A DNA stretch of 64,000 nucleotides from Adineta ricciae. Lineage: Eukaryota; Rotifera; Eurotatoria; Adinetida; Adinetidae. The notes under the pieces were generated by a model. It was given only the letters and a program-made list of their open reading frames with translations, had not been told where the DNA came from and ran no database searches. The position numbers and the translations under genes are program-made. Location: positions 59,777-123,776 of the forward strand of contig CAJNOJ010000293.1 of assembly GCA_905250025.1 (NCBI GenBank), in the 5' to 3' direction. Each line of letters begins with the position of its first letter. The first letter of the stretch is position 1. This document shows positions 13,015 to 64,000 of the stretch, piece by piece.

Positions 13015-13168
13015 TTATATACTGACGATCGCAAACTCGTGAAAGATACCTAGAAGGGAGTCATGTTAAATAAAGAAATCTTCGTTTGATAAAAACGATA
13101 ATGACAAAACATGCATGTTAAATATAAAGTCACTTTAAAGTGATACAACTTGTTTCTAACGCGCACCC

Positions 13169-26810: not shown

Positions 26811-28073
26811 ATGAAATTTCCATTACCTCATGAAAAAAAACTTCCACACGAAGTTCCAATTCATCGGCCTCCAACGAAGTTACATAATTCCATTCTTTTC
26901 AGTCGCATTGCTGGTTCATTAGTAGGTTTAGCTGTTGGTGATGCTCTTGGTGCAAGTGTTGAGTTTCGTCCGCGGAAATATCTGCTTGCACATCCAGTTC
27001 ACGATATGACATCGGGTGGAACATGGAATTTGAAAGCAGGCCAATGGACTGACGATACGTCGATGGCTTTGTGCCTTGCGACATCGTTGATCAATAAAGG
27101 AACGTTTAGTCCTTACGACCAAATGGTTCGATTTAAATGGTGGTATAGATATGGTTACCTATCGTCTACTGGTGTATGTTTTGATATTGGTAATGGAACA
27201 CGCAAATCGTTAGAGGAATTCACTCGACGGCAGGTGAATTTGAAAAAGAAACTTCATATAAAAGATGATTATGATGTTGATCAAGTTCCGCAGAAAACTA
27301 TAGATAAACTGCAGTTCAACGTCTTTTGTAGTGGACCAGGCGCGTGTGGTAATGGAGCTTTGATGCGTCTTGCTCCAGTACCTCTGTTTTTCTATCGTGT
27401 TCCTCACATTGCTGTTGAATTATCCGGTCACAGTTCTCGTTTAACACATGGCGATGAAGTTGCGATCGATGCTTGTCGTTATCTCGGCGCTCTAATTGTA
27501 GCAGCTGTTGCAGGCGAATCAAAAGAAAATCTTCTTAGTGAACGATTCTATGAATCACACCGAAGTTGGTTTGGCCGAAAAGCTCTTCATCAGGACATTC
27601 TCCATGTCGCTGCTGGATCGTTCAAACGACAAGGTGGTTACAACGATGGCATTCGAGGTGCCGGACATGTCGTTCCATCACTTGAAGCAGCACTGTGGGC
27701 GTTCTGGAAAGGAAAATCTTATGAAGACGGTGTCATGAATGCCATCCATCTTGGTGATGATACCGATACAACAGCAGCTATCTATGGTCAATTAGCTGGC
27801 GCTCACTATGGTTATCAAAGTATTCCATATAATTGGATACATCAACTTTACGCGAACTCATTGATTTTCTGTATTGCCGAATGGTTACAAGCATCGAGTT
27901 ATCGACGAAGAAAAGTACTTGATCATAAAAAGTATCAATACTCAAGTCGTCAATATGGCAAGCCAAAACAGCATTATTATCATCGTATGAATGGAAATAT
28001 ATCCAAATTACTCCCACGACCGGGCGATGAAGCCGCGAGACGAAGTATCGGTGATAAATCCATGGCAAAATAG
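26811..28073 (+). CDS. ADP-ribosylglycohydrolase (DraG/ARH family)
   Basis: Intronless, 420 residues from ATG 26811. SRIAGSLVGLAVGDALGASV opens the ARH fold. GQWTDDTSMALCLATSLI (residues 78-95) supplies the first Mg2+ ligands and HLGDDTDTTAAIYGQLAGA the second set, with GNGALMRLAPV and SRLTHGDEVAIDACRYLGAL between them. These are the hallmarks of enzymes that remove ADP-ribose from proteins, so it can act as the eraser for ART writers such as the one at 9068. The last ~55 residues are basic and probably disordered. The family is widespread in bacteria and expanded in bdelloids; the target is unknown. Confidence 0.92.
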   Translation: MKFPLPHEKKLPHEVPIHRPPTKLHNSILFSRIAGSLVGLAVGDALGASVEFRPRKYLLAHPVHDMTSGGTWNLKAGQWTDDTSMALCLATSLINKGTFSPYDQMVRFKWWYRYGYLSSTGVCFDIGNGTRKSLEEFTRRQVNLKKKLHIKDDYDVDQVPQKTIDKLQFNVFCSGPGACGNGALMRLAPVPLFFYRVPHIAVELSGHSSRLTHGDEVAIDACRYLGALIVAAVAGESKENLLSERFYESHRSWFGRKALHQDILHVAAGSFKRQGGYNDGIRGAGHVVPSLEAALWAFWKGKSYEDGVMNAIHLGDDTDTTAAIYGQLAGAHYGYQSIPYNWIHQLYANSLIFCIAEWLQASSYRRRKVLDHKKYQYSSRQYGKPKQHYYHRMNGNISKLLPRPGDEAARRSIGDKSMAK

Positions 28074-42124: not shown

Positions 42125-45100
42125 ATGATCGATATTATTTCGTTAAAACTATGGATCTTTTTCATTGTCAGCGGACATGGGCTGAGTAAGTACTCGACCG
42201 AGTTGATTGTGATTAGTCAGTCATCGGAGTAAAGTAGCTTAAGAGAAAATCGACAGTCACTTTTAAAGATTTCATTGAGATACTTCAGCGATATTCTGAA
42301 TATATTTACTTTCTTCGATTAGCATTGTCTTATAATCGGCCAAAGTTCTCCGCCGATCCAATCTGGCATCAATATGCCACGACTTTTGCTACAGCTCAGA
42401 CTGTAGGATCCTTCCCGAATGATATCTTTATCAGCACAAACAATACAATTTATGTGGCCTCCTCGTGGAACAACAAAATTATCATTTGGAATGAAGGGAA
42501 CAACGCGTCAATAATGAGTATTTCGGGAAATGTATTCATTCCAACCAGTGTGTTTGCTACTACAGCAGGTGAGATTTACATTGACAGTGGTACCACAACC
42601 GGCCAAATCGTTAAATGGACTGTTAATTCAACAAATGCTACTACTGTTTTGTACACATGTGCAAAATGCTATGATATTTTCATTGACACCAGTGAGAATA
42701 TATACTGCTCGATGGCCAGTGGAAATCAAGTGGTGAAGAAATCGTTAGAAAGAACCTCGAATGCTTTCACAGTTGTTGCTGGCACTGGTTCGGCTGGAAA
42801 TAGTGCGAATATGCTGAATGGACCATGGGGTATCTTTGTGGATTACAATTTTGATTTATATGTCGCAGATTGTTTCAACCATCGTGTTCAACTCTTCACA
42901 CTGGATCGCGTAAATGCTACCACTGTCGCAGGAAATCAATCTACGAATGTTACAGTTGCGCTCTCATACCCAACAGCAGTCATTCTTGATGCCGATAGCA
43001 ATTTGTTCATCGTAGATTGGGGCAACAATCGAATCGTGGGATCAGGCCCAAATGGTTTTCGATGTATAGTTGGGTGTACTAGCTCACCTGGTTTGACATC
43101 CATTACATTAAACAGCCCTATCTCTATGAGTTTTGATACGCATGGAAATATTTATGTTGCCGATAGAAATAACAGTCGAATTCAGAAATTTATGCTATTA
43201 AACAACACTTTTGGTAGGTATTAGAGTTTATCGTGTAAGATATATATATATCTGAAGAAACGTCACGCGTTTGTACAGTGCGATTGACATAGAATTTGTA
43301 CAAAATCTATTGTTTTTGTTCCAGTTCCATCATATAATCGGCCACATTTTTGTGCAAATGCATCATGGGATCCAAATGCAATTACTTTTGCGACTGCTAA
43401 CGACATCGGAGTCACTCCTTACACTGTTTTTGTCACAATTGATAACACGGTCTATGCTCTTGACCATACAAATAAACGAATTCAGGTATGGTCTAATGGC
43501 AGCACAAGCCCAACACAAACAATTCCTGGTGCCTTCCTCACCTCATGGACGATCTTCACCACAGTCAATGGTGATATTTTTATTGACGATGGATTGGCGA
43601 ACGGACGAGTGATCAAATGGTCGTCGTCAACAAATACTGCTCTTTCTGTTATGCCTGTTAGTGGAATTTGCTATGGTCTTTTTGTCGATGTTAATGACGC
43701 ACTGTACTGCTCCGGGAGCATTCATCGTGTTGTGAAAAAGTGGTTAGGCGATAATTCAAGTAGCATCACACTTGTAGCTGGCAAAGGCATCGCTGGTAGC
43801 ACCTCTAACAGTCTTAATGATCCGCGCGGAATTTTCGTTGATGATAATCTCGACTTGTATGTAGCAGATCGACTAAATAACCGCATTCAACTTTTTCGAT
43901 TGGGAGAATTGAATGGAATTACAGTTGCTGGAATCACGTCCGCAACTGCCACAATTTCACTCTATTTTCCAACTGATGTTATTCTTGATGAAGATGGTTA
44001 TCTCTTTATCACAGACACTTATAATCATCGTATTCTTGGATCAGGACTCAATGGCTTTCGATGTATAGCTGGATGCACTGGCACTGCTGGTCCAAGCCCC
44101 AACCAGTTGAATTTTCCGGAACAACTTAGCTTCGATAGCTTTGGAAATCTATTTGTTGTCGATTGTTTGAATAATCGTATTCAGAAGTTTCTGTTATTGA
44201 CAAATTCCTGCGGTAAGTGGGCAACGACATTCATCTGAGCATTTGCTAATCATAGCATAGAAAGCCTTTCATAAAATACACATCGCTCTCGATAGATAGT
44301 CAGTGCTCGAACTGAGATCATATCCTCATAGAGTGTCTCTCGCTTATTCTAGATACATCCTCGACATCGGCTACTAGCAATGGTAAGACAATCATTTTCG
44401 ATCAGTTATTTCGCAGTACCATTTGATTTGTAGTACCAATAACATCAACTCCCTCGTCGATATCGCCAACTTCGATAGGTACTCAGCCGAGCATCATCAC
44501 GGCATCTCCATCATCAATAGGTATATTTATTTTTACTATGAACCGATTCTAAAATAATCAACACAAGCGATTTTATCTGCTGCTTTTCTGAAAAACATTT
44601 TGACGAAAGTTCTGCTTTTTATCATCTAGTTATTTCATACAATCGACCTAAACTGAGTGCACATGCTTCATGGAGTGCTAACGCAATCACTTTTGCCAAC
44701 AACAGTACAATTGGACTAAATCCTAGCGGTCTCTTTATTACAATTAACAATACCGTGTATGTCGCCGATCACACAAATAGTCGAATTCGGATATGGTCTA
44801 ATAATAGTGCTAATCCAATGCAAACAATATACGGCTCTTTTACAAGTCCCCTTGCGATTTTTGTCACAGCTGAGGGTGATCTTTTTATTGATGATGGCTT
44901 AGCAAATAATCAAGTAGATAAATGGTCATCAACAACAAACATGACTAGTTCCGTAATGTTTGGTAACAGTCGCTGTTATAGTCTGTTTGTTGATAACAAC
45001 AATAATCTGTACTGTTCGGTATCAGCACGGCATCAGATCATTACCAAATCATTGACTAGTAATTCAAATACCACAACAGTGGTAGCTGGAACAGGCTGTA

Positions 45101-48100
45101 ATGGTTCCACACCAAACATGCTAAATGGGCCTTGGGGAATCTTTGTTGACACCAATTTGGACTTGTATGTAGCAGATTGTTACAATAATCGAATTCAACT
45201 TTTTCAACCAGATGAACTGAATGCTATCACAGTTGCAGGAAATGAATCACTGAATGTTACAGTTTCACTCTATCGTCCCACTGGGATTCTTCTCGATGGC
45301 GATAATAATCTATTTATCGCGGATGCTGGCAATAATCGTATTGTTGGATCAGGACCCAATGGTTTTCGCTGCATCGTTGGATGTTCTGGTACAGTTGGCA
45401 TAGCATCGAATCAGTTGCACTATCCATCATCTATTAGTTTCGATACCTATGGAAACATATTTGTTACTGATTACCTCAATAATCGTATCCAGAAATTCAT
45501 TCTGTTAAATGAAACTCTTGGTAAGTAATTGAGCATATAATGTTCAACCAGTGAACATTGAAGCAATTATTTTTACAGTTAACGTAGCTAATTGGAAAAG
45601 ATTACTTGAACATTGTTTCCTTTAGTTCCGTCGTATAATCAGCCGATATTTTGTGCAAATGCGTCGTGGGATCCAAATGCAATTACTTTCGCAAATAGCA
45701 GTGTGATTGGAGCATATCCCTTCGGTTTGTTTGTCACGACTAACAACACAATATATATTGCTGATCGAATGAATAATCGAATTCTGGTGTGGTCTAATGG
45801 TAGTTTGACTCCAACACAAACAATCTCTGGCAAATTCAACGCTTCGTACACGGTTTTTGTGCAAACGAATGGTGACATATACATTGATGATGGAACGGTA
45901 AGCAGTCGAGTGGAGAAATGGTCACCGTTAACAAATACCACTATTCCTGTTATGTCAGTGAATGGACCTTGTCATGGTCTGTTTGTGGACATCACTGATA
46001 CACTGTATTGCTCGATGACTAATTATCATCGCATTGTCAAAAGATGGTTAGGTGATAATTCTAGCAATGTGACGACTGTTGCTGGTACAGGTAGTGCTGG
46101 CAACACTTCCAACGCTCTTAATGTTCCATCTGGAATTTTTGTTGATAAGAATCTGAATTTGTATGTGGCAGATCGTTATAATCATCGCATCCAACTCTTT
46201 CGACTAGGGCAGCTAAATGGTATCACTGCTGTAGGAATGACATCACCAAATATAACAATCACACTAAATTATCCATCATCAGTCACTCTTGATGCTGGTG
46301 GATATCTCTTCATTGTGGACAGCGGCAACAATCGTATTGTTGGCTCAGGATCCGATGGTTTTCGATGTATAGTTGGATGCACTGGTGTGCCTGGCTCAGC
46401 ATCAAATCAGCTGTATAATCCAATAGACATCAGTTTTGATACCTATGGAAATATGTATACAGCAGACTGGTCTAATAATCGAACCCAAAAATTCTTATAC
46501 ATGCCAGAGTCTTGTGGTAAGTATTTCAGATTTCTCTATGCTTCCACTTCGATTGGTATCAAAAAAGTCATTGTAAACTTCTTCATATAAGACTTTAAAA
46601 ATTTTGAAGAAACTAATATATATAGAAAAGAGTATATCAAAGTCAATGTATAAAAGTTTTCATTTGAAATTAATGTTGCATAGCATTCAATTTAGCATAC
46701 ATTCTTAATACAAAAAAGACACTTCTTTATCCATATAATCAACATCTAATAGCAGATTATTTTTACTGTAGCTTATACAACAAAAACAACAACAACGACA
46801 AGTTCGTCCACATTTCTATCTTTTCTTTCTCTGACAATACATCTTTCTAGAACAAACCACAACAATTACATTATCAACTCTCAACAACTGTGAGTGTTTC
46901 TTGTTTCTGAACATTCTCTCTATTTCTGCTATCTTAGCATGCTCTCCTCCTACAATCACACTCATTCCAAGTTCATTCACATTATCATCACCCGCACGAT
47001 TTTGTCGAAGTCAAGATTTCACTATCGTTTCTTTGATTGAACTCAACTGTAACACTTCACTGTCGATTTCTTCTCAGTGGACAATCACAAACTGCACTTC
47101 TTTCTGTTCACAACAGATCTCTGCTGATCCGAACATAGATACAACATTCACTGAACTGTTTGTTCCTGCTCGCACTCTGCCTTATGGTCTCTATGAACTT
47201 AACCTCACTGTTATCATGTCCAATACGACAAATGTGTCTGCATCATCCGTTGTTTATGTTCAAATTACACCATCAGGCATCACAGCTAATCTAGTTCAGT
47301 ATGGCACATCGATGATCACGCGTGGCACCGGACAAGATCTCCAGCTAGATCCTGGCAGCTATTCCGTAGATCCCGATGAAAATGCATTCAATGCTTCAGT
47401 ATAAACCTCGGCACAGAAGTCATCATTCCGCATCTCACCATCTTGTCTTTTGTTTAGAACTGGAGATACAAATACTATTGCCGAATATATGACTCATCCA
47501 TGTTTCCGAATCTGCAAGGTTCGCTGTTGACAGTGGACGATCCAAGAAATGATTCATACAATCCATCTTGTTTGTCCAACCGAAATGGATGGAGATTTGA
47601 CAACTCACTCAACTCATCATTCACCATTCTTGCTAACTCACTTCGATCTAATCGAACCTATCAGTTCATGGTTCAGATGGAAAATCGTCGCAATGCTTCA
47701 TTGCAAGCAACTGGTTATGTTCTTGTGAAAGTGGATGACACTCGTCCATATATGATCTTGATCGGGTATTACTCTCTTTTTTTTCTCTTGTTAATTGTGA
47801 TCGTGAGTGATTGATTGTAGTTGTGTGATCTGGACAATGTGTGAGCCCAATCTCGAGTTTCAACTTGTGAATCCAACCACTCAAGTAGCGCTGTTTTCAG
47901 TTTGCGCTGGAAACTATTCAACAGTTCAAAACATCGCCTGGTCTATTTATTTTAGCAGTAATCCAATGAACTCATCATCAAACTTCACCCAATGGTCGTT
48001 GTTTAATCAAACGGCTTCTTATGAGAATATCTGGTTTTTCGGTAAATGAAATCAGCTTTTATTGTTCCAGAGGAGATCTGAATGCATGTTGTAGGAAGAA

Positions 48101-49806
48101 ATACGAGTAACTTCACAGCAGCAAATCAGTTATTTTTGTCGAATCCACAGATTGAGCTTTGGCGATTTGAAGTTGTTTATAGTTTTGCAGCGGAGAAAAG
48201 CGTGAGTTCATTGAACTTTGTTATCAATCAACCACCATCCAATGGATCATGTTTTATCTACCCTCTCAATGGTACAACAGCTACTCTCTTCACGATTTCT
48301 TGTTCAGCTTGGTTTGACAGTGATGGAATCAAGGACTACACAGTCTATAGTATGTTCACATTCGATTTGATATCTGATGAGTTGTTGACTTTTTTCTGCA
48401 TTTTATTAGTTTGGACAAATGATTCAACACAGAGAATGATCATTGGTTATTCATCAGTTGCAACACTCGAAATGTACCTACCAGTTGGTGATGATCAATT
48501 ATCACTTGTTCACTGGATAGTTCAAGTTCGAGATCAATTGGGCTGTATCACTGAGACAAATGTTTCGTCAGTGACTGTTTTTTCCAATCTAGCAGCGATC
48601 AATGACTTGATCAATGACGTTCAAAACTCAACTCCAGTCAATCCAATCCTTCAACTACTTGCAAGTGGAAATCAGAACCTAGTTGGACAACTGATCACTT
48701 CGATATCACAACAATTCAGCGAAATCAACAATGAAAATCTTGATAAAGCGATTTCCAGTAAATATTCACTTCACTACTTTGAAATTAGCTCATACGCTTT
48801 TTTTCTCTATTAGATGGTGTTCCGCTTGCAAGTATATCTGTATCATCATTGGATATTCAAGATAAGCAACAGACATTGTCAACACCATTCAATCAATCAG
48901 TACTGAATGAATTCAACAAACAAATCAACTTTCGAGCTGATGCGAGAGACTATCTCATTGCATTCCTCACGAATCTTCCCATAACAACGTCCAACAGTAT
49001 TAAACTGCAAGCATCATCATTAGCACAATTCACCAAATCAACCAATGAACTAACAAGAACAACCATAGTACTGTGCCATTTCGCTATTATCTCTCTTACA
49101 GATTGAACTGTCTTGTAGGCTAGTGCATCGAATCGATGTTATCGATTAGCATTGGCTTTGAATTCGATGCGTACGAAAATCACATACGAAGATGTTCAAC
49201 TTGCCTCCGCTGATCTTCTTCAGTGTGCTTCAAACTTGATGAATGTGAAGTATCTATTTTAAACATCCATACAAACTATTTTTCGTTTTCAACAAGGCTG
49301 TTAATGGTGCATTGCAAGAACGAACAACAATACTCAATTTGGATTCTTATCGAGCCACTAAGTTCCCTGATGATTATGATACAGATGTTGAGCTAGAGTG
49401 GGCCAATCTAAGTAAAATCTTTCTTCTTTCATTCATACTAGTGATGTAATAAGATATTTAGAATTATTTGCCGATGGTGATGATTTCTCATTGGAAACAA
49501 TGCAAAAGAATCGCAATATCTATTACCAGCAACAATTAGCTGGACAAATCAGCACTCAAATGACTGAACTCATCTCACTATTGACTTCAACATTGAACAT
49601 TCATCTCAATATTGGACAAGATTTTCACATCCAGACATCACAAGTCATCATGACGTTAGAGACCAAATCTTCACAATCACTTGCAAATCACTTCACAAAA
49701 ACCATCGGCGGTGGTCAAGTTCAACTTCCCAATAACTTCGCGTCTTATCTTGGCACAAACGAAAAGATCTCCATTCGAGTGAGTTTCTCACTGCTGTTCG
49801 TACAAG
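42125..49806 (+). CDS. Polycystin-1-like gene A: four NHL propellers plus REJ region, 3' end lost
   Basis: A signal-peptide exon (42125-42185, LWIFFIVSGHG) is followed by propeller exons 42323-43213, 43325-44212, 44630-45520 and 45626-46516. Each encodes six NHL blades (for example GIFVDYNFDLYVADCFNHRV). Small Thr/Ser linker exons lie at 44353-44382, 44434-44520, 46772-46801 and 46851-46889. All these exons start and end in phase 1. REJ-like exons follow from 46938 (PPTITLIPSSFT), then 47458 onward (TVDDPRNDSYNPSCLSN, GIKDYTVYS) to 49778. The last legible bases are the start of an intron that runs into the N gap. The expected GPS and membrane part is missing. It is predicted to be an extracellular receptor or adhesion protein. 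Confidence 0.82.
49560..49806 (+). repeat. Near-identical tract shared with gene B (57675-57921)
   Basis: These 247 nt match 57675-57921 with one visible mismatch (A/G near 49640), including 28 nt of intron. The tract ends exactly at the N gap. Neighbouring exons of the two genes are clearly diverged. Confidence 0.9.
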
Positions 49807-49849
49807 NNNNNNNNNNNNNNNNNNNNNNNNNNNNNNNNNNNNNNNNNNN
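49807..49849. other. Assembly gap, 43 N
   Basis: The gap lies inside an intron of gene A at the point where the sequence is identical to gene B. What follows at 49850 is not the expected GPS/PLAT exon. The gap length is probably nominal. Confidence 0.9.
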
Positions 49850-51480
49850 CTTGCCTGTGTTACCCAATAGTTCGTACTTGCGAAGATTGAAGAATGCTTC
49901 TCTATTTATAATAATTCTTTCTATTCATTGCTGTGCACATATTTGCTGTTGTCAAAACAGCATTAATTAACTTTGAAGTTGAGATTATATATACGTATAT
50001 GCAGCATAACAACTATTGAATCGTAGATGCAAAATAAATAGAAATTTATTGACGCAAAATTTGTATGGATGAAGATGAAAAGGTTTCTTTTGAAATTGAA
50101 CTGTGCAATTTCTTGTTTTCTTTCAAATGCAATGGCATGATCAACTACGTCACAAACTATATTTTAGGAGAGTCAACGTACCAGATGTCCTTTTAGAAGT
50201 AGAAAACAACCTTAACCCATGTTTTCAATCATATGAAGCTTTTGCTTTGTTGACATATACTTATTCAGTAGTAAATTAATCCTTTTCATTTGCGTCGTAT
50301 TTTTCTGATTGGTAGGTCGGCATAAAAATAACTATTGAAATACGAGGTAAGGTGTCAGCGTACCGAAATATGCGACCCAGGAGATCATTTGTATTATACA
50401 TATACATGCACTAGTTCTCATCCGAGAGATGAGTTATGTTTTGCATGATATTCAAAATATGTGATAGAGTGAAAAAGTGAAGATATAATCATATAAAATC
50501 TTGATATCGTTGGAATTATTTGAGATTTATATCGATGCTTCGACTAGACTCCATTTAATTTCAATTTTGTGTATGAATGAAATATATTTCATAAATCATA
50601 GTTGAATACTTCAACACATTCAGCTTGAGATGAAAAAATCGCGAAGGTTTTTTTCTCTCGTAGTATGTTTGTTTGACAAACGGCCGGTATAAAATCAATT
50701 TGAATATGAAACGGAAAAAGATGACAGTGTGCATTGGAAAGTGTGTGCAGAGAGTAGGACATTTAAAAATAACAACTACTCTCCATAGTCCGTATTTCGC
50801 TCTTGAACACTACACGACCATCAAGTACACACCTTGAAAAAATAAGTGATTGTCCATGTTGTAAGGATGACTATCTTCTCGCAACCTTTTCCAAAGGCTT
50901 TCAATGTCGTTGTACAAGTCGATCGAAAGAAACGCCGTTTTGATTTCCGGTGTATCGAGTAAATACTAATGAATTAAATTAACAAAGAAAGTCATATATT
51001 GACCGTTTTCGCCTTCGCATTGGTATTTAACAGAAGAATTTCTCGGTAATAAAAAATAGGTCTGTCTTTGGCCGATAATATTAATAGAATGAAATTGATT
51101 TACCTTCGCCGGAAAATTTGAACATCGCGATGAATCAATCTGATTGATATTGACTAACTTCAAATGAGAATCGATATGAGTTTTTCAGGATTAAAATAGC
51201 ACTACGACTTTTTAAAAGACGATCAATGAAACTAGAATTTATTTAAAAAGCTCAGCCATCTTGAACATAGACGAATGTTTGATAATAGAATTCTCGATTA
51301 CAGTTCGATTCAAAGTGGGTAAATAATCGGCCGATTGACATCATAGGAGAAGAAAATAAGTAAACGACGAAAAGGAATATAAATTGGCAAGAAGTTGTCA
51401 GTTTTATTGCAACCAATTCGTTCACTTTTTGATTACATTGAAGAAATCGACAATAGCGACCAACTTTTATCTTACTGATA
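49850..51480. other. Gene-free stretch after the gap
   Basis: About 1.6 kb of AT-rich sequence without a supported gene; minus frames at 50966-51163 and 51252-51527 have no motif. It probably includes the promoter of gene B at its right end. Confidence 0.45.
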
Positions 51481-54400
51481 ATGATTGTCATTGATCGATT
51501 CAAACTTTGGATCATCTTTGTGATCATTGAAGAAGTTTTGAGTAAGTAATTAACACGATTTTGGTATCATTTTAATTAAATGTGTACTTAGCAGAATCAT
51601 TTTTATTGACGTCTGTTGACATGATCGTAAGCATACTGCATTTCTTCATTTTGAAGCCGAAACGAGCTAGGATGTTATTGTTGATAGAGTGAAGAGTATA
51701 AATCGCATCTTATCCATAGCCCATGACTATACAGTTTTGTTCATATAATTGAATATAGAGTTGTACAGCGACACATTTTTTGAAGTTTTCGACGAAACGC
51801 GGATTCTGTGTGGCATAATATTTTCCTCTACAAAAGGGGAAGATAAAGCAAAAGGCTTCTTAGCCGGGAAATAAATAGGATCTTCCGCCTGCTTTTTGGC
51901 ATATTATCGAAACACATGAATTAATATAATTGTAGAGTAACGGTAGTTCTCGATCATAGCATGCCAACCAGCTTTAAACAAAAAGTATAATGACGTAGTT
52001 CTTCAGTTGATACAGTTAGAGTGTCGTAGATGTTGATAAACATCTTCATAGTAAATGATAAGAAGATGCATTTCAGAAACTTTCTCTTTTTACCTAGCAC
52101 TTTCATACAATCGACCAAAGCTTGATCCCTATGCAATGTGGAATCCGTCTGCCATCACTTTTGCAGATGTGAATTCAGTTGGATCCAGCCCATTTGATAT
52201 TTTCGTTAATACAAACAACACCATCTATGTGCCCAATCAAGCAAACAGCCGCGTCCTTGTGTGGACTCAAGGCAATGCTTCAACGATACGGTATATTTCG
52301 AGCAATGTGTTGTCTCCATACACCCTTTTTGTCACAACTACCGGCGAGATTTATGTTGACAGTGCCAGCTCAACCGGACGAATCGATAGATGGACATTGA
52401 ATGCATCAAGTGGTGTTCCGGTACTGTACCTGTGCTCGAAATGCTACGATGTCTTTGTTAATGCGCAGGACATTCTTTACTGTTCGATGCAGAGTAGCCA
52501 TCAGATAGTGTCGAAGTCGTTAAAAACAAACTCGAATGCATTCGCAATCGTTGCTGGTACAGGTTCCGCTGGATACGCTGCAAATATGCTGAATCAGCCT
52601 TGGGGAATATTTGTGGATACCAATTCTGATCTATATGTAGCAGATCAATACAATCATCGTATTCAGCTCTTTCGTTCAGGACAACTTACCGGTATTACAG
52701 TTGCTGGCAGTACATCGATCAATCTTACTATTCCACTTTCTTACCCGTCTGGAATTGCCCTCGACTTCGATGGTTACCTCTTTATCGTCGATAAATACAA
52801 TCATCGCATTGTTGGATCAGATTCAAGTGGCTTTCGTTGCGTTGTTGGATGCACTGGTAGCGCAGGTTCAAGCTCAAATCAGTTGTACTATCCAACATCG
52901 ATGAGTTTTGACAATCATGGAAACATGTTCGTCGCTGATACTAGCAACAGTCGTATTCAGAAATTTATTCACTTGAATAATAGTCTCGGTGAGTAATTTG
53001 AAACTCAGTTACAACTTACTATTTTACCTCTTGCTCGATAACTTTCGTCAATGAATGCTAATTAGCTGCTATGCTGCGAAAAGCAACGTTTTTATTTAGT
53101 TCACATAACCATCTGCGGATTCACCTAAGACTACTCACTTACTTTCATTTTAGTTCCATCATATAATCGACCGAAATTCTGCCCAGATGCTTCGTGGGAT
53201 CCAAATGCAACTACATTTGCTGCTGGAGGAAATAATATAATTGGTTCGTCACCTTACGGTATCTTCATCACCATCAACAATACCATCTATGTTGCCGATC
53301 GAACCAACTATCGTGTTCAGATTTGGTCTAATGAAAGTGACATTCCATCACAATCCATCTACGGTACCTATATGAACTCATATTCACTTTTTGTCACGAC
53401 CAATGGTGATATTTTTGTTGATAATGGAAACTACAATCGTCGGGTAGATAAACTAACAACGACGACAAATACAAGTGTACCTGTCATGTATATTAGTTCA
53501 TCATGTTATGGTTTATTCGTTGATCTAACTGATGTTGTGTATTGTTCAATGCCTAATTATCATCAGGTGGCGAAAAGATGGGTGAATGACTACTCTAGAA
53601 CAGTGACGGTCGTCGCTGGTACTGGTTATGCTTCTAGCAATTCATATTACCTCTATTATCCTATGGGAATATTTGTGGATACTAACTTTGATCTATATGT
53701 AGCAGATCAATACAATCATCGTATTCAGCTCTTTCGATCGGGGCAGCTTAACGGTATTACAGTTGCAGGAAGTACATCGCCTAATCGTACTATCTCACTG
53801 GCGTATCCCAGTGGAGTTGTTCTGGATGCTGATGGTTATCTATTTATCGTAGATAGCTACAATCAACGCATTGTAGGGTCAGGATCCAATGGTTTCCGTT
53901 GTGTAGCTGGATGTTATAGATTTTTTGGTTCGCTATCAAATCAGCTGTACTATCCAATATCGATGAGCTTTGATAGTTACGGAAATATATTCGTAACAGA
54001 TACCAACTATCAACGTATACAAAAATTCTATCTTTTAGAAAACTTTTGTAGTAAGTGTAGCAATGATTCCTGTACTTGTATCAATACGACGGTTTCTGCT
54101 TTGCTTATTATACCTGTTATATTGTCGACGGCGTTCATGTCTTTTAGTGTTGTGTAGGGATAGGCAAAATTCGAACTAGGAAACTTTCTTGTTCTTAGTT
54201 GAAGTTTGATCGCTAACAATCATTTAGACTATTTCACTGCTGTCATAGTATTCGTATTGGATTTCAAATGAAATTTGCATCTCTGTATCGATCAATCGGA
54301 TAAATAGCGTTTTCTCTCTTGTTAAAAATTTCCTTACGAAAGTTTACGAGACAGAAAAGATGAGCACCAATCTGTTTGTCTCATGTATCATGTTTATTCG

Positions 54401-57400
54401 GCTAGCCCTGCACCGCATAGCGTCTCTGAAGTTTGATAAGTTCTGTAGTGTCAATTTTCTTTCGCAACAAAGTAAGGACGCTTGAAATGGCATGATGAGT
54501 TTTACATTCGAAACTCGTTGTATAAACATTTATTCTACTTTAGATCAAACATTAACCGTTGGCTACCAAACAACGACTATTTCGACAATAGTAGCAAGTT
54601 CAAAAGGTTCGTTTAACATGATATTGTGACAGAGATTCAAATAAATCTGATAAAGTCATTTTCTCCGAACTTTTCAGAATAGATTGAGTTAAGTTAGCAT
54701 TACTGGTGAATCGCTTATACCGTTCCCTTTCAAATTAACGTATCAGATCCAAAGGGCTCCCAAGATAATTGTTATCACTTTGTTTAAATTCAAACTTGAA
54801 ATCACATTTCCAATCATACGGAGTTGTTGTTTTCATTAGCTGACACATTCTGTTTTGCTCGAACTACATCATACTAGTCAGATTCTCTATATTCGTTGTA
54901 GTTTTTGTTCGTCATTTGTATAGTCTATGCAATTGAGGTAAATGAAAGATATCACACGGTGAGATCTACTTTTGATAGTAGAGTCAAATTGCCTAGCAGC
55001 GCGCAAGTCGATCAAATAATAATGACATATTGAAATGGACTCTTTCTAGTATGTCTCCCACCTACAATCACGCTGATACCAGGCACCACGACGATGTCAT
55101 CACCCGTCCAATTTCGTCGAAGTCAAGATTTTTCAATTGTTTCACGTATTGATTTAAATTGTAATATCTCATCGTCAGTGAATAGTCAATGGACAATTAA
55201 GAACTGCACCTCTTCATGTTCACAACAGATCTCTGCTGATCCAAACATCATTACAACATTCACTGAACTGTTTGTTCCTGCTCGCACTCTGCCTTATGGT
55301 CTCTACGAATTCAACCTCACTATCACCATGCTTAATATGACGAATGTTTCTGCATCGTCCGTTGTTTATGTTCAAATCACACCATCAGGCATAACAGCTA
55401 ATCTAGTTCAGTATGGCACATCGATGATCACGCATGGCACCGGACAAAATCTTCAGCTAGATCCTGGAAATTATTCTATTGATGCTGATGGGGCTATATT
55501 TGATGCTTCAGTATAAACTTTGACATAGAAGTCATCATTCCGCACCTGGTCATCTTATCATTTGTTTAGAACTGGAAATACAAATACTATTGCCGAATCT
55601 ATGGTTCATTCACGTTTCCGAATCTGCAAGGTTCCCTATTGACAGTGGACGATCCAAGAAATGATTCATACAATCCATCTTGTTTGTCCAACCGAAATGG
55701 ATGGAGATTTGACAACTCACTCAACTCATCATTCACCATTCTTGCTAACTCACTTCGATCTAATCGAACCTATCAGTTCATGGTTCAGATGGAAAATCGT
55801 CGCAATGCTTCATTGCAAGCAACTGGTTATGTTCTTGTGAAAGTGGATGACACTCGTCCATTCATGATCTTGATTGGGTATCGCTATCTTTTCTTCTCTC
55901 GTTTGTCGTGATTGTGACTGATTGATTGTAGTTGTGTGATCTGGACAATGTGTGAGGCGAATCTCGAGTTTCAGCTTGTAAATCCAACCACTCAAGTGGC
56001 TTTGTTTTCAGTTTGTGCTGGAAACTATTCAACAGTCCAAAACATCACATGGTCTGTTTATTTCAGTAGCAATACAATGAACTCATCATCAAACTTCACC
56101 CAATGGTCTTTGTTCAATCAGACTACTACTTATGATAATATCTGGTTTTTTGGTAAACTAAATCGTTTGATTTTGTGCCAAAGGAGATCTGAGTACATGT
56201 TGTAGGAAGAAATACGAGTAACTTCACAGCAACAAATCAGTTGTTTCTGTCAAATCCACAAACTGAGCTTTGGCGATTTGAAGTTGTTTATAGTTTTGCA
56301 ACGGAGAAAAGCGTGAGTTCATTGAACTTTGTTATCAATCAGCCACCATCCAATGGATCATGTATGGTTGATCCTATGAATGGAACGACAACTACTTTGT
56401 TCACGGTTTCATGCAAGGACTTTTTTGACACAGATGGAATAAAAGATTACACCGTCTACAGTATATAAAAGTCTTTTCCAAAGCGAATACGAAATATTTT
56501 TGTATTTTCTTAGGTTACGCAATGAATTCAACGAAGAAAACTATCGTTGCCTATTCCAATGCGCCTACATTACAGTTATATCTACCAACTGGTGATAATC
56601 AAACGTCATTACTTTACTTGACTGTCCAAGTGCGAGACCAACTAGATTGTGTTACAGAGGCGAACACTGTATCAGTTACTGTACTTCCTAATTTGATGAT
56701 AATCGATGATGTAATGCTCCACATTCTAAACTCATCGAACACTGATAATACTAATGCAATAAATCAGATGCTTGCCAGTAAAAATCAAAACCTAGTTGTG
56801 CAAGTGATAAGTTCAGTATCGCAGCAACTCAATGAAATTAGTAACGAAAATATCAACGAAGCTATCTCAGGTCAGTTTTTTTTCACTTATAAATCGTTCA
56901 AGCTGATTAACCCTGCATCTTTATTATTTAGATGGTATTCCAGCTGCAAGTATATCTGTATCATCATTAGATATTCAGAATCAACATCAGACGTTGCCAA
57001 CGCCATTCAATCAATCCGCATTGGATGAATTCAGCGCTCGATTAAACTCTCGTGCATCAGCTCGCGACTATCTTGTCACCTTCCTCACGAATCTCCCTAT
57101 AACAACATCGAATAGTATCAAACTGCAAGCATCATCATTAGCACAGTTCACAAAATCAACCAATGAATTGACGCGAACAACTCTCGTATGATTTCATTCT
57201 CTCTTTTCCTTTCACAATCAAATGTGCTGTAGACAAGTGTATCGGACCGATGTTATCAGTTGGGATTAGCTTTGGACTCAATGAAAATGAACATCGCCTT
57301 TGAAGACGTTCAACTTGCTGCACCTGATCTCCTTCAATGTGCTGCTAATATACTAAACGTAAGAATCTTTTTGTGAATCTAAATTGAAAATATATCTAGT

Positions 57401-59741
57401 AATTTTAGGCCGTAAATGCACCTTTACAAGCACGAACCACTATTCTTGACTCCGATTCTGTCGTAGCTACAGAGTTTCCCGAAGACTATGATACCGATCT
57501 AGAAGCGGAGTGGGCTAATTCGCGTAAAACATATTCCCATTTTATCCTATAATTCCTAATCTGCAATATCTAGGTATGTTTGCCGCTGGTGATGATTTCT
57601 CATTGGAAACAATACAAACGAATCGCAACCTCTACTATCATCAGCAACAACTAGCTCATCAAATCAACATTCAAATGACTGAACTCATCTCACTATTGAC
57701 TTCAACATTGAACATTCATCTCAATATTGGACAAGATTTTCACATCCAGACATCGCAAGTCATCATGACGTTAGAGACCAAATCTTCACAATCACTTGCA
57801 AATCACTTCACAAAAACCATCGGCGGTGGTCAAGTTCAACTTCCCAATAACTTCGCGTCTTATCTTGGCACAAACGAAAAGATCTCCATTCGAGTGAGTT
57901 TCTCACTGCTGTTCGTACAAGTGACTGACTCTTTGTTCTTTAGTCAATCATGGAACCATTGGCACCATTCGGCAACTCCAAATCAACATCCAACACCAAT
58001 CTATCTCGATCACTCTCATTCTCCATTCTTAATCAAGATCAAAACGAAGTTTCAATTCAAACAGCAAATAATCAGTCAATCGAACTTATCATTCCGCGTG
58101 ATCCCAATCTCATCATTCCACCAATGATCCATCAGAATGTCACATCACTCAACTCCACTTCTCCTCACCAACTCCTCTTCTATTTCCAATATGTGAGTTT
58201 GTCATCATCATCACTGGCAGTTTCAGTTCATTGGGAAGTGGAACCATCGAGTACAAGTCTCGCTTACTTGTTTGTCTATCGTTTCGATCAGACACCACAA
58301 CTCAACACGTCAATCAATCACATCGATGGATGGACACTTTTTTGTCCTTCTAATCTCCCAAATGACAGTGTGTACACTTATTATGTCGATAATCAACAAA
58401 CAAACGGTCATCAGTCGATCATCTTTGGTTTGAGAGAACTCAATACAACTGAAACCATTCAACATTGTTCAAACACATCACTCACACATCCTCCCATCAC
58501 AGATCAACCATTCAACTTCACCTCAGACTATGGACTCAGAATCTACACATCTGGCTGCTATTATCTCGACGAGAATCAGCAGTGGAAGTCAGATGGACTC
58601 GTTGTTGGGCCATTGACTAATCACAGTCAAACTCAATGTTATTCCACTCATCTGACAACATTTGCAGGTGGATTTGTTGTTTTACCTAACACAATCGACT
58701 GGAATTATGTGTTTGTCAACGGTGACTTCGTGAAGAATAAAACAGTTTATTTGACAGTGATTGTTGCTTGTGTGATCTATGTGGTTCTGATGATTTGCGC
58801 ACGATATTATGACAAGGAAGATGTGCAGATGTCGAATATTACAATGTTGCCTGACGACAAGAATGATATTCGTCGTCATATTCTGCAGCGAGGTGGATTT
58901 GATGTCTTGATGAGTGTTCCCAAGTCATTGGGACTGTTGAATTACATTTGCAAAGATTCATTATCATCGTGGTTTCTGAAAAATATCACCCTTTGTGTTT
59001 TTCAACGATGGTTCGCTGTTAAGAAACATGATGGAAAGATCGAACGTGCTCTAACCGTTGCAAACGAATTGGAGAACAGTCAATTCGCTCGTGTCCACCG
59101 TTTGCGTGATGAACGATCGAGAAAGATGCAAATGTGTTCTGTCATTCATGAAATAATGCTGCGTGCGTGTTTTTTGTCAGTAGTTTATGTGTTGATCTAT
59201 TCGAGCCGAAATTCAAATGCATTTCATCAGGTGCATCATCTCAGAAGATATTTCCTCAATCCAACACAAGCTGATCTTGATTATACAAAAGTTAGCTTTC
59301 TAGTGGAGCTTAATCTCATTGTCTGTTGTGAAATGATTTAGATTTCAACTGTCGGTGATCTTCGTGCTCAGCAGTGGTGCAATGGCGATCGACAATTATA
59401 TGCATTTGAACGGCAGAATCAATCGTCACTACAAGATGAATGCGATATTCTTATTTACGTTGAAAACATTTCTGAGATCGATAGGTCATTTTTTCTGTTG
59501 AAGTTGTCCAAAAAGCAAATGTCTTTGTGATCGTTTTAGCTTTAAAAAGTTGACAAAAATAGGAACTCAAGCCGAACGAGATTTACAGAACCGTGGAAAA
59601 TGCCATTGCTCGGTTAAACACTTTTCTGGAAAGATGGACCAGCTGTTAATTGATTTGAATCAGGTATATTTTGCTAATGAGCACCAGAGTAATCACACAT
59701 CTAATTGCTGATGTTTGTAGATTTACACGGATAATAAGTGA
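51481..59741 (+). CDS. Polycystin-1-like gene B: two NHL propellers, REJ, GPS, short PLAT, two membrane spans
   Basis: The signal exon is 51481-51541 (LWIIFVIIEEVLS), then a 556-nt intron. Propeller exons are 52098-52988 and 53154-54050, with a Thr-rich linker exon near 54545. REJ exons run from about 55050 to 57893. Exon 57944-59290 carries the GPS motif (TQCYSTHLTTFAGGF, cleavage expected at HL/T), the first span (VYLTVIVACVIYVVLMICAR), a shortened PLAT domain (HILQRGGFDVLMSVPKSLG, LCVFQRWFAVKKHDGKIERA) and a second span (LRACFLSVVYVLIYSSRNSN). Short exons then give ISTVGDLRAQQW and a Cys/Lys-rich tail (FKKLTKIGTQAERDLQ) to the stop at 59739-59741. The early PLAT strands and the rest of the channel-like membrane region of polycystin-1 are absent. 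Confidence 0.8.
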
Positions 59742-60467
59742 GAACAGTTGTTTCAAAAAGAAACATTGACGTATACATCGTATATATTCCTATCCATCGC
59801 TTCTTGTGATAATGTTGTTTGTGGTTGACGTTCATTCACGATAAATAAATTTCGTCGTTCTTATCATCATAGATTCTCTATGTCCATCATCTAGAACATC
59901 TAGGATCCAACAGGCAATTATTCGTCTTTGTATGTCTCGTACAGAATTGAGTACTTCGTACTTTATTCTTTCTTCTTTTCCATAAAACAAATCCTCCGAA
60001 ATGAGAGGAAATAAAAATAGATTGTGCACGATGGAACACCCTCAACATCCATGAATGTAACTGTAAAGAAGCAAATGTATCTGTTCTAGACGAAAACAAA
60101 ACATCAAAACACATTGCTGCAAAAGGATATGAAGGCAAGACCGTTGTGAATGAAAGAAATTCTAATAAATTCCGATAATCGCATTTGGCGTTTTTTTCAT
60201 CTCCACGTAAAAGATCTATTGATTTTCTCCCCTCTAAAGAACACAAAACTTTAAAGCATTGAAATAAAATTGCGCCTTATCTGTCTTTCATATCTTTAAG
60301 AAACATTGAAGTTTCACGGAGAAGAAGATGGATATCTCTTTCTAACTGAAAAGCGAACTTTATTGAGTATGAGATTCGAATAAATAAAGAGAAAGAAGAC
60401 CACTGGGTTAAGAGGAATGGTTAATTTTACAGTGTAGTGAGGAATAAAAGAATGTATTAGTTTGAGT
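59742..60467. other. Spacer between converging genes
   Basis: 3' flanks of gene B (+) and the beta-helix gene (-). Minus-strand open frames here (59832-60246) have no recognisable features. Confidence 0.45.
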
Positions 60468-61562
60468 TTATAAGCCTGGAACAACAGTTGGACCTAAATA
60501 CACCGGTTGAGCACCAACGACTTTAATCTTCCATGCTGTTGTATCTAAAATGACAGTAATATTATTGACTCTTATCGGTGTACCTGTGCCATTGGTACAA
60601 GGAGGATCCACTCCATTTGCAGGCTTTGGTTTGTTGATAGGTGCTTGGATAACGCCTTTGCCATCGTCCATCGCATTACTACAAGCATTGGCGGTGTAAA
60701 CATTACCAACTGTATTATTGGCAATAATGGATTGCGACAATGTCAACGTGTCAGTACAAGCCGCAAAAGCTGCACCAAGCACACCAGCATAATTGTTGGC
60801 AACTGTTAGACCAGACAAGGTACCTGTAACTGGCTTGGAACAGAAGAATGCGCCACCAATTTGAGTGTTAGCTCGATTTCCTATTAAATTAACACTGCTT
60901 AATTCGACAGCTTTTTCATTGGAGAAGAACAGAGCGCCAGCTGTTGTCGCTGAATTGTTAAAAATAGTAGCATTACGAATTCTTGCTGTACCACCCTGAA
61001 TATATAATGCACCTGCTGCACCATTACCACTTTGAACAACAAGGTTACTATCAATTAATACATTATCGAAATTGTTCTGTTCATCACCATTGTAAGACAC
61101 ACGAAAGAATGTTCCACCGAATTTGTTTGCCTGGTTTCTAGTAAATCTTGTTCCGCATATGGTATTATTTCGACCTCTGCCATCGAAACTGATAGCACCA
61201 CCGTTTCCACCCAGACCGGGATTTCCGTCCTTGCCTGTCGCTTGATTGCCTTCAAAATGGCTGTTATAAATCATCAGTCCGCTACCGAGAATACCTAATC
61301 CGCCTCCATTCGAGCATTTGTTTCCGAGAAATACACTGCTAATCACAGTTGTATCACCGCCACCGAGGGTCCAGACGGCACCACCGGCTGTATCTTGACC
61401 AGTAACAGCACCTGTGTTGTTCTCAAAGACACAATTGATAATTTTAGTTGTGCCGCCATTTTTTTGTAAGATAGCACATCCACCGCCATTGTCTTGACAA
61501 TATCCGTTGATAAGTCGAAGTCGTTGAACGGTAAATATTGGTGTTGCATTTCCATAAAACAA
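60468..61562 (-). CDS. Right-handed parallel beta-helix protein, 5' truncated
   Basis: 364 residues are readable, ending at stop 60468; the 5' end abuts the n at 61565, so the N-terminus (including any signal peptide) is missing and the first Met may not be the start. The text is a chain of short Gly/Asn coils (GGGCAILQKNGGTTKI, GGAVWTLGGGDTTVISSVF, GGGLGILGSGLMIYNSHFEG, GGNGGAISFDGRGRNN, AGALYIQGGTARIRNATIF), typical of pectate-lyase-like or POMP/adhesin beta-helices found mostly in secreted bacterial proteins. Conserved NNTG / GNxA turns stack every ~22 residues. It is intronless over this length. Bacterial origin by transfer is plausible. Its substrate or role is unknown. Confidence 0.75.
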   Translation of the reverse strand: MFYGNATPIFTVQRLRLINGYCQDNGGGCAILQKNGGTTKIINCVFENNTGAVTGQDTAGGAVWTLGGGDTTVISSVFLGNKCSNGGGLGILGSGLMIYNSHFEGNQATGKDGNPGLGGNGGAISFDGRGRNNTICGTRFTRNQANKFGGTFFRVSYNGDEQNNFDNVLIDSNLVVQSGNGAAGALYIQGGTARIRNATIFNNSATTAGALFFSNEKAVELSSVNLIGNRANTQIGGAFFCSKPVTGTLSGLTVANNYAGVLGAAFAACTDTLTLSQSIIANNTVGNVYTANACSNAMDDGKGVIQAPINKPKPANGVDPPCTNGTGTPIRVNNITVILDTTAWKIKVVGAQPVYLGPTVVPGL

Positions 61563-61564
61563 GC

Positions 61565-61565
61565 N
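61565..61565. other. Single-n assembly junction
   Basis: Joins the 5' broken beta-helix gene (-) to the middle of an NHL propeller exon (+). The following 121 nt (61566-61686) are identical to 53745-53865 in gene B, so the join falls at a repeat. Confidence 0.8.
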
Positions 61566-64000
61566 AGCTTAACGGTATTACAGTTGCAGGAAGTACATCG
61601 CCTAATCGTACTATCTCACTGGCGTATCCCAGTGGAGTTGTTCTGGATGCTGATGGTTATCTATTTATCGTAGATAGCTACAATCATCGTATCGTAGGAT
61701 CGAATCCAAATGGTTTCCGTTGTATAGTTGGATGTAGTGGTATAGGCAATTCACCAGATCGATTGCGATATCCGACATCGATGAGTTTTGATATGTATGG
61801 GAACATGTTCGTCACTGATACCAGTAATAGTCGTATTCAGAAGTTTAACTGCTCCACGGAGTCATATGGTAAGTAGGTCAGGACAAAGATGTCAGAAACA
61901 ATGCACTAGTAAGTATGCTGTTTTTTTATCTGATAACATATCAATTTGCCAGAATTTACGCAACTGTATGATGTGTTCTCACACAGAATAACATTAACGA
62001 GAGAAATTTTCATCGTCGTTACGAGATTAGCTATTGCTCTAAAGTTTTCTTCTGTGTTTTAGAAACCACGGGCACTGCAAGCCTGTATAGTGGTAACGAG
62101 AACATTTACGTCCCCTCACTAAAAATAAAATGAATTTTAGGAAATACAATGTCGACCACAGCTCAATTTAATCTGCTAACCACAATTACTACACAATCCA
62201 CTGTCGTAACAACGTCTCCAGTGCAAACCGGTAATCGTCCGAAGAGGGATCTTAATCTGTCGCTGTAACGTCATTTATATAGATTTCCTTCTTTAACCGT
62301 TTCTTCACTCTGGAGATTGTACAATAATCTTATAGATATAGATTTTCTTCGCACGTTTATTTTTCTGAATCTTCCCTTTCATTTAGTTCCTTCATACAAT
62401 CGACCGAAGCTAGATACACATCCAATGTGGAGTGCTAACGCAATCACTTTTGCTACCAGCAGTACCGTGGGATCATCACCTTACGGTATCTTCATCACCA
62501 TCAACAACACCATCTATGTTGCCGATCGAACCAACTATCGTGTTCAGATTTGGTCTAATGGAAGTGACATTCCATCACAATCCATCTACGGTACCTATAT
62601 GAACTCATATTCACTTTTTGTCACGACCAATGGTGATATTTTCGTTGATAATGGATACTATAATGGTCGAGTAGATAAACGAACAACAATAACAAATACA
62701 AGTGTACCTGTCATGTATATTAGTTCATCATGCTTTGGTTTATTTGTTGATCTGACTGATACTCTCTATTGTTCAATGAGCAATTACCATCAAGTCATTG
62801 CAAAATCATTACAGAGTAGTTCCAATATCATTACAACAATAGCAGGCACTGGTTGCTATGGATCCACTTCATATCAACTCTATTATCCTATGGGAATATT
62901 TGTGGATACCAATTCTGATCTATATGTAGCAGATCAATACAATCATCGTATTCAGCTCTTTCGTTCAGGACAACTTACCGGTATTACAGTTGCTGGGAGT
63001 ACATCGATCAATCTTACTATTCCACTTTCTTACCCGTCTGGAATTGCCCTCGACTTCGATGGTTACCTCTTTATCGTCGATAAATACAACCATCGCATTG
63101 TTGGATCAGATTCAAGTGGCTTTCGCTGCGTTGTTGGATGCACTGGTAGAGCAGGTTCGAGCTCAAATCAGTTGTACTATCCAACATCGATGAGTTTTGA
63201 CAATCATGGAAACATGTTCGTCACTGATACTAGTAATAGTCGTATTCAGAAATTTATTCACTTGAATAATAGTCGCGGTAAGTTGCTCAGGATATGATTG
63301 TAGATGTTAGTTTAGCGAGTTGCTTTCGTTTCTTCGTTGTAAATGTATAGGAATGAAGTATGTACCATGAAAACCAGTTATGTACCAAAAAGTCTTCTGC
63401 AAAACTGAAGTTCACTAATAAAAAGACATATTTTGATGTATTCTTTCTTTGCATGATATAAAAACGTGGTGACTAGTTTGATAAATTTCAGAAACGCCTC
63501 ATTTTGATGAGATCTACGATCATGATTTAATGTCGTGTGATATCATTTCTATGAGTTTTGTTTCATAGGCGGCATAGAACATAATTAGTATATAACACAC
63601 TGACACTTCGAATTGCGTTTTCCAGTTGCCTAACTGAATCAAAGATCGTTTGATTTATCTGTTAGATTTACTGCACATTGTTTTTCCTTGATTCCTCGGG
63701 TGAACATACAACCACTATTAAAAACAGTCATCAACGCTTTCACTTTCGAAATTGTTATTCTAAAGGAATCTTATTGTATTTTAGTTCCATCATACAACCA
63801 ACCCAAACTTTGCTCGGACGCTTCGTGGAATCCAAATGCAACTACATTTGCTGCTGGAGGAAATAATATAATTGGTTCGTCACCTTACGGTATCTTCATC
63901 ACCATCAACAACACCATCTATGTTGCCGATCGAACCAACTATCGTGTTCAGATTTGGTCTAATGGAAGTGACATTCCATCACAATCCATCTACGGTACCT
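61566..64000 (+). CDS. NHL-propeller gene C, partial at both ends
   Basis: It begins inside a propeller exon (to 61868, last two blades only). Thr-rich linker exons follow at 62063-62092 and 62141-62230, a complete propeller exon at 62387-63277 (891 nt), and the first part of another from 63785 to the window end. All boundaries are phase 1, as in genes A and B. The complete propeller is a mosaic: its right half (about 62898-63270) is ~97% identical to the first propeller of B, and its left part (about 62470-62640) to the second propeller of B. No REJ or GPS exon is within the window. Confidence 0.8.

Follow-up and report, generated by a model that had tools for sequence, protein, structure and literature searches.

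A probable tandem cluster of polycystin-1-like receptor genes with one-exon propeller heads in the rotifer Adineta ricciae

Polycystin-1 family proteins have been described in kidney disease, in sperm-egg recognition and in taste, and their heads include PKD repeats and lectins. In this work we analyse a 64,000-nucleotide (nt) stretch from the 130 Mb genome of the bdelloid rotifer Adineta ricciae (contig CAJNOJ010000293.1, or C293, positions 59777-123776; hereafter the window), the right end of which is the contig end. The window is probably part of a tandem array of genes for polycystin-1-like receptors, each with an exon cassette as its ectodomain head.

The order of REJ, GPS-like region, first membrane segment (TM1), PLAT, polycystin domain and channel is common to the Adineta genes and the described family (PKD1, PKD1L1-3, PKDREJ and SpREJ1-10). 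The difference lies in the heads: in A. ricciae these consist of NHL propellers in tandem or of D8C modules. For the sea urchin family, the pertinent passages of the published account name C-type lectin, PKD repeats, EGF, SUEL and WSC as heads (PMC1934368), and the words "NHL" and "propeller" are absent from the text of that paper. The same passages give 10 REJ-family genes for sea urchin and five for human (PMC1934368), while there are at least 65 REJ loci, some of them fragmentary, in A. ricciae.

By Foldseek and sequence matches, the propellers have the same fold as those of Thin, TRIM71, TRIM2/3, Brat, PknD and Pizza6. They differ from these known NHL propellers in being predicted to be extracellular, in standing several in a row and in being encoded by a single phase-1 exon each. 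The NHL domain of teneurins is likewise an extracellular propeller of animals, and TEN_NHL matches were found in all three exons scanned, but these matches are partial, one of them is below the cut-off, and no further teneurin module was found in the scanned exons. FREP, Dscam and 185/333 are invertebrate recognition repertoires built from duplicated and recombined exon modules. The Adineta genes are similar in this respect; neither somatic or splice-based diversification nor an immune role is indicated for them.

NHL is among the repeat-motif families expanded in Adineta vaga (PMC3846280); in that account the term occurs once, in a passage without polycystins or exon cassettes. Our literature search (few subscription papers and no preprints covered) gave no description of a propeller-polycystin architecture among the matches listed; the initial annotation had called the architecture unfamiliar from described polycystins. 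The predicted NHL-propeller or D8C heads, each in one exon of symmetric phase, are what is new within the family.

Propeller exons and the polycystin-type chassis

The initial annotation had proposed that each exon of 888-897 nt in the window is one six-bladed propeller flanked by phase-1 introns. All seven full exons were verified in their coordinates, lengths, GT-AG borders and phase 1 at both ends. They belong to three genes, designated A, B and C, and are as follows (positions in the window):

42323..43213, forward strand: propeller exon 1 of gene A, 891 nt, phase 1-1, six blades, Pfam NHL 5.9e-17
43325..44212, forward strand: propeller exon 2 of gene A, 888 nt, phase 1-1, six blades
44630..45520, forward strand: propeller exon 3 of gene A, 891 nt, phase 1-1, six blades
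45626..46516, forward strand: propeller exon 4 of gene A, 891 nt, phase 1-1, NHL 3e-20, the exon modelled by AlphaFold
52098..52988, forward strand: propeller exon 1 of gene B, 891 nt, phase 1-1, six blades
53154..54050, forward strand: propeller exon 2 of gene B, 897 nt, phase 1-1, six blades, NHL 4.7e-20
62387..63277, forward strand: propeller exon of gene C, 891 nt, phase 1-1, hybrid of the 53154 and 52098 types
63785..64000, forward strand: start of an eighth propeller exon, in gene C, cut by the contig end

A blade profile trained solely on propellers outside the window found six blades in each of the seven exons and any blade in just two of 350 shuffled sequences. Pfam NHL was above its cut-off in all three of the seven exons that were scanned (E 6e-17 to 3e-20). 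The AlphaFold model of exon 45626-46516, for which the seven window propellers served as input alignment, predicts six four-stranded blades with a mean predicted local distance difference test score of 89 and a predicted template modelling score of 0.90, so one exon has a confident six-bladed model in addition to the profile. Strand 19-22 at the N-terminus of the modelled propeller is free to complete the last blade. Among solved structures, the nearest to the model are Pizza6 designs (6.5e-18), followed further down by fly Thin (3.7e-14) and PknD (3.0e-13). Sequence matches are to Pizza6 (1.6e-27), Thin (1e-23), TRIM71 (2.1e-22), PknD (1.6e-16), TRIM2/3 (about 1e-8 to 1e-7) and Brat (1.4e-5). 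Nine of 12 bacterial loci recovered belong to Bacteroidota (Sediminibacterium and others), with NHL proteins 30-35% identical to the window propeller.

Propeller exons are numerous in the genome, at least 133 of them being recognised. Counts from our genome-wide scans are lower bounds, as the best candidates alone were scored (133 of 1325 for propeller exons and 150 of 2777 for NHL matches). Splice phase was evaluated, with no phase assumed, on 63 full-length propellers (with all seven of the window) from 34 merged stretches of 310,818 nt in total. Judged from sequence, the best-scoring donor within the range searched was in phase 1 in every one of them, as was the best acceptor in 61. Exon length in these 61 was 873-897 nt, most commonly 888 (23 exons) or 891 (21 exons); the two propellers with an odd acceptor were omitted from the tree and hybrid analyses described below. 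Short linker exons of 30-90 nt had been described as being in phase 1 as well, and the four predicted by our own splice model (30, 39, 30 and 90 nt) are indeed entered in this phase. The view of one exon as one propeller, used as a phase-1 cassette on polycystin-1-like genes, is supported.

An instance of the whole architecture lies just upstream of the window, where a neighbour gene (C293:46313-58093) has all pieces in order. A predicted signal-peptide exon precedes three propellers (46906-47796, 47957-48853 and 49369-50259), which are followed by REJ, a GPS-like region, TM1-PLAT, the polycystin domain and the channel. Pfam matches are REJ 2.4e-13, PLAT 4e-19, Polycystin_dom 1.3e-32 and PKD_channel 7.5e-31, and there is a PDB match to PKD2L1 (7.9e-17). 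Of the polycystin-1 family features examined, REJ, PLAT after TM1, the polycystin (TOP) domain and the channel are found here, and GPS is below its cut-off. Heads, chassis and their order can be read directly from the sequence, and the order of propellers, REJ, GAIN/GPS-like region, TM1-PLAT, TM2-5, polycystin domain and channel was the same in every multi-piece stretch examined.

Linkage of propellers to REJ is a genome-wide feature. After clustering of 103 matches into 65 listed REJ loci, a full propeller was located upstream on the same strand, at a distance of up to 6 kb, in 34 of them, as against none on the opposite strand and two downstream; about 0.2 upstream pairs would be expected if placement were random. 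A PLAT match lies within 7 kb downstream in 31 of the 65 loci, and 19 have both the propeller upstream and PLAT downstream (43 of 109 PLAT matches, hand-picked as receptor-like, were used in these counts). Two further REJ loci, on C453, have NHL matches upstream, according to a check of 12 of the best 150 NHL matches, chosen by contig, which also covered the D8C loci considered below. The propeller-polycystin link is therefore real and not due to chance. In dozens of genes, interchangeable one-exon propeller modules appear to be joined to a channel receptor of polycystin type, which makes for many different receptor heads.

The remaining features of the three window genes are listed below:

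42125..42185, forward strand: predicted signal-peptide exon of gene A, 61 nt, leaving phase 1 (own splice model; hydrophobic N-terminus by eye)
44353..44382, forward strand: predicted Thr/Ser linker exon of gene A, 30 nt (own splice model)
46851..46889, forward strand: predicted linker exon of gene A, 39 nt (own splice model)
46938..49806, forward strand: REJ exons and GAIN-like region of gene A up to the gap, introns inside (Pfam REJ; alignment to the neighbour gene)
49807..49849, no strand: assembly gap of 43 Ns truncating gene A (sequence)
51481..51541, forward strand: predicted signal-peptide exon of gene B, 61 nt (own splice model)
55050..57893, forward strand: REJ and GAIN-like exons of gene B, introns inside (identity to the neighbour gene; approximate own exon model)
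57944..59341, forward strand: GPS-like exon, TM1, PLAT remnant and deletion-damaged tail of gene B (Pfam; alignment to the neighbour)
61566..61868, forward strand: 3' third of a propeller exon of gene C, joined in mid-exon at a single N (61565)
62063..62092, forward strand: predicted linker exon of gene C, 30 nt (own splice model)
62141..62230, forward strand: predicted Thr/Ser linker exon of gene C, 90 nt (own splice model)

Gene A as assembled consists of a signal peptide, four propellers and REJ followed by the gap, and is not a complete receptor. Its REJ region is recognised by Pfam (E 9.2e-16 and 6.4e-10). Our own exon model ends early, at 49106, and alignment to the neighbour gene reaches 49806; between the gap and gene B there is no match to GPS, PLAT or the channel.

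Gene B is 93.3% identical in nucleotides to the neighbour gene over 54503-58821, with short matching pieces only beyond this region, and its REJ is 95% identical to the neighbour's REJ piece. REJ follows the propeller cassettes in both genes, as initially described, which is seen in A by Pfam and in B by this identity. Gene B had also been credited with GPS and PLAT. A PLAT remnant is visible by alignment to the neighbour gene, with no Pfam PLAT match; an intact PLAT is ruled out by this negative and by the deletions relative to the neighbour. The GPS match of gene B scores 21.0 bits against a Pfam cut-off of 22.5 (17.3 bits in the neighbour), and an HLT motif can be seen by eye in both genes. 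In neither A nor B as assembled was there a match to the polycystin (TOP) domain or the channel. By its alignment gene B is a damaged copy, in which most of PLAT, TM2-5 and the channel have been lost through deletions.

Read-through past the donor of the last propeller in gene B (54051-54157) and in the neighbour (C293:50260-50362) gives a similar hydrophobic tail and a stop. The two tails have six differences in the first 100 nt, and 5-15 per 100 nt are found elsewhere in the intron. A membrane-anchored short isoform ending in this tail is possible but unsupported, as the tail diverges at the intron rate.

Gene C is incomplete, starting in mid-exon at the N at 61565 and being cut by the contig end. 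A repeat-rich open reading frame of 364 amino acids (window 60468-61562, reverse strand), which has no Pfam match at E 0.001, reaches the same N. Since a propeller exon starts in mid-exon just beyond this N, the site is probably an assembly join.

Elsewhere in the window are two TPR proteins (5984-7351 and 9014-11077, forward strand), of which the second bears an ADP-ribosyltransferase-like domain (2.3e-8), an ADP-ribosylglycohydrolase at 26799-28070 and a leucine-rich-repeat protein in one long reading frame (13160-15196, forward strand) with an apparent single membrane segment by eye.

Number, order and recombination of the heads

The number of propellers differs between genes, as initially noted for A with four and B with two; the neighbour has three. 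Among the listed arrays followed by REJ, drawn from the 133 best-scored exons, one propeller is present in 12, two in 11, three in six and four in five. The stretch C241:93000-100000 has five consecutive propellers and no REJ in the 7 kb examined; there the cassettes may serve other types of genes.

The symmetric phase 1 of the head exons allows gain, loss and replacement of heads with the frame kept intact. The proposal that cassettes can be added, lost or swapped agrees with the turnover seen in propeller counts, hybrids and D8C heads, but they have not been freely swapped everywhere. In a FastTree phylogeny, computed without support values, propellers of the same position group together in the four-propeller subfamily on C203, C558, C646, C157 and C285, suggesting that propeller order there is old and contradicting free reshuffling throughout the family.

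Recombination has also occurred inside propellers. A usable triplet was available for 58 of the 61 propellers in the hybrid test, and 16 of the 58 were significant; as parents and children of one event are both counted, independent hybrid events are few. Over alignment columns 17-420, exon 62387 of gene C shares 91% identity with the third propeller of the neighbour, and 72% outside them; its identity to exon 52098 is 89% outside and 58% inside these columns. Its first half thus resembles the 53154 type and its second half the 52098 type. In the model, the switch point falls close to where blade 3 meets blade 4. Like hybrids are present on C164 and C412 (corrected log10 p of -32, -25 and -24 for the three). 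The three copies share 88-91% nucleotide identity, and the one on C412 lies about 12 kb inside its contig. The hybrid is therefore older than the divergence of the three copies, and an artefact of the contig end is unlikely for exon 62387. Propellers 2 and 3 of the neighbour gene, in a stretch with no Ns, match each other at 99-100% across some 535-570 alignment columns, as against 71-73% in the remainder, which suggests a recent conversion.

Replacement of the head by an unrelated module may be represented by six REJ loci (four on C217 and two on C139) that have D8C_UMOD modules upstream and no propeller match. The four modules scanned (E 9e-11 to 1e-9) are each one exon of 405-435 nt with phase 1 at both ends; two of them also match an unrelated viral family below the cut-off, which we attribute to chance. 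In total 29 D8C matches were found, 12 at the six REJ loci and 17 elsewhere. Compared with the neighbour gene, the C217 chassis is 87% identical in GAIN/GPS and 96% in TM1-PLAT, and 63-70% in REJ, TM2-5, the polycystin domain and the channel. The GAIN tree places C217 with gene B and the neighbour (support 98.8/100), and the polycystin (TOP) domain tree places it with the neighbour, C412, C164a and C194 (100/100). Whether the head was exchanged or part of the chassis converted, the head behaves as a separable module.

Selection on the propellers and alternative explanations

The propellers had been taken to form a diversifying recognition surface. Alternatively, they could be a stalk or an adhesive ectodomain serving spacing or mechanosensing, drifting in number and sequence with no selection for recognition, which we regard as somewhat unlikely. 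The stable order in the four-propeller subfamily would fit a stalk, and so would most ratios of nonsynonymous to synonymous change, as these were 0.17-0.44 in 22 of the 25 closest propeller pairs. Close pairs with window exons 52098, 53154 or 62387 had ratios of 0.19-0.33, so diversifying selection was not seen for the propellers of genes B and C in these tests; the four propellers of gene A had no close relative among the 25 pairs.

The other three pairs (1.09-1.23) all fall within the trio C267/C323/C338, which speaks against a mere stalk. Ratios in the trio are 1.08-1.22 for the propeller, 0.42-0.51 for REJ-GAIN and 0.24-0.26 for the membrane part, in which the channel piece covers 12-40 codons only. 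The propeller differs from the membrane part at Fisher p of 7e-7 to 2e-6 (three comparisons, not independent) and from REJ-GAIN at p of 0.008-0.019; the latter sums include a non-equivalent REJ piece of C267 (nonsynonymous rate about 0.5), of which the propeller-membrane test is free.

Changes in the trio are concentrated in the BC loops, a class fixed before the counts: 19 of 30 sites vary there, compared with an overall 59 of 296 (p 4e-8), and BC-loop ratios are 3.1-7.1. No variable site was found in the A strand (30 sites) or the AB turn (18 sites). The DA class was added after the alignment had been viewed, so figures for the two classes combined are partly post hoc: BC and DA loops hold 37 of the 59 variable residues on 72 of 295 sites (p 9e-13). 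Direct tests give weaker results: for these loops an excess of the nonsynonymous over the synonymous rate has p of 0.025, 0.082 and 0.026, and a value near 6e-6 is obtained only if the synonymous rate of the entire exon is taken as reference. The comparison with the rest of the exon gives 0.018, 0.20 and 0.008. Given the strand order of the AlphaFold model, BC and DA loops presumably lie on the same face of the propeller.

This loop effect is absent from the pool of eight other pairs, hand-picked from the close pairs with no exon reused, one of which holds window exon 52098. When pooled they give 0.44 for BC and DA loops against 0.35 for the rest (p 0.065), again in keeping with a stalk. One of the eight, C164p_239946/C412p_11979 of the hybrid class, has raised values in these loops, 0.99 against 0.28 (p 0.005), contrary to that expectation. 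Overall, the sequence comparisons support a diversified face for the C267/C323/C338 trio, which lies outside the window, and not for the family at large or for the B and C propellers.

Another possibility is that two gene types adjoin each other, secreted or anchored propeller proteins and REJ-polycystin genes, and that their proximity only reflects duplication of both together in tandem. We consider this improbable. It draws on the 42 of 76 listed propeller arrays that have no REJ match within 6 kb downstream, on the likeness of the read-through tail in gene B and the neighbour to an anchor signal, and on 11 of 21 propeller-REJ gaps measuring 0.6-1.9 kb, in which a promoter could fit. However, a single 61-nt intron separates the last propeller from REJ in two C164 genes (C164a and C164b), with phase 1 on both sides and the acceptor chosen by eye, leaving no space for a second promoter there. 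At 19 of the 21 REJ loci preceded by a propeller, the acceptor by which REJ is entered is in phase 1, a few of these sites being weak; the other two are C164a and C164b, where the automatic choice fell on a different AG. A crude test found no signal-peptide-like start in 14 of the 21 gaps (this and the 11 of 21 were counted by hand), and the tail diverges like the remaining intron.

We give equally little credence to the hybrids and near-identical stretches being assembly artefacts from collapsed or chimeric repeats, since the Ns at 49807-49849 and 61565, the contig end at 64000 and the location of both hybrid 62387 and the C164 hybrid near contig ends are outweighed by the same hybrid class well inside C412, the 88-91% identity among the three copies and the absence of Ns around the neighbour's propellers 2 and 3, where collapse is nevertheless possible.

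Several points weigh against the cluster of cassette-headed receptors as a whole. None of genes A, B and C is a complete receptor as assembled, and GPS is under the Pfam cut-off in both genes scanned (B and the neighbour). Our own splice model of the neighbour gene skips some exons and gives no single reading frame across all of it. The joining of exons is read from genomic sequence, splicing being strongly inferred from it. The 42 arrays without REJ, two of which (C293:122168 and C164:239949) sit at contig ends, imply that propeller exons are also used in other settings. As for head exchange, the REJ tree does not settle where the D8C genes belong (0/32), and the patchy identity of C217 may reflect conversion of the chassis instead.

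A putative receptor and its bearing on bdelloid biology

On the reading we prefer, in which propellers and chassis form one protein, a signal peptide would precede between one and four NHL propellers of six blades, each from one phase-1 exon of 873-897 nt, with Thr/Ser linkers. After these, the predicted common chassis would have REJ, a GAIN/GPS-like region with HLT as its cleavage motif, TM1-PLAT and more membrane segments, and lastly the polycystin (TOP) domain and a cation channel. By analogy with the described family, the likeliest role of the heads is to bind a ligand outside the cell, either a glycan or protein of a cell surface or the surface of another organism. The GAIN/GPS region, possibly after cleavage, would relay or release tension and the polycystin channel would respond, making the protein a putative cell-surface sensor.

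A broader proposal can be put forward only tentatively. It combines the polycystin chassis with a germline repertoire of interchangeable heads, recombining within propellers near blade boundaries, with BC and DA loops on one propeller face diversified by selection in some lineages, in the manner of a ring of six hypervariable loops. Through a calcium channel, such receptors might sense a wide range of external or foreign ligands in an animal with little or no sex.

In these genes the exchange of heads on a signalling channel would be traceable exon by exon, and the loop diversification of the trio on one face would give a concrete prediction of the ligand-binding site. Their occurrence in a bdelloid also raises the question of why animals best known for long-term asexuality would retain the egg-jelly-receptor gene family and enlarge it.

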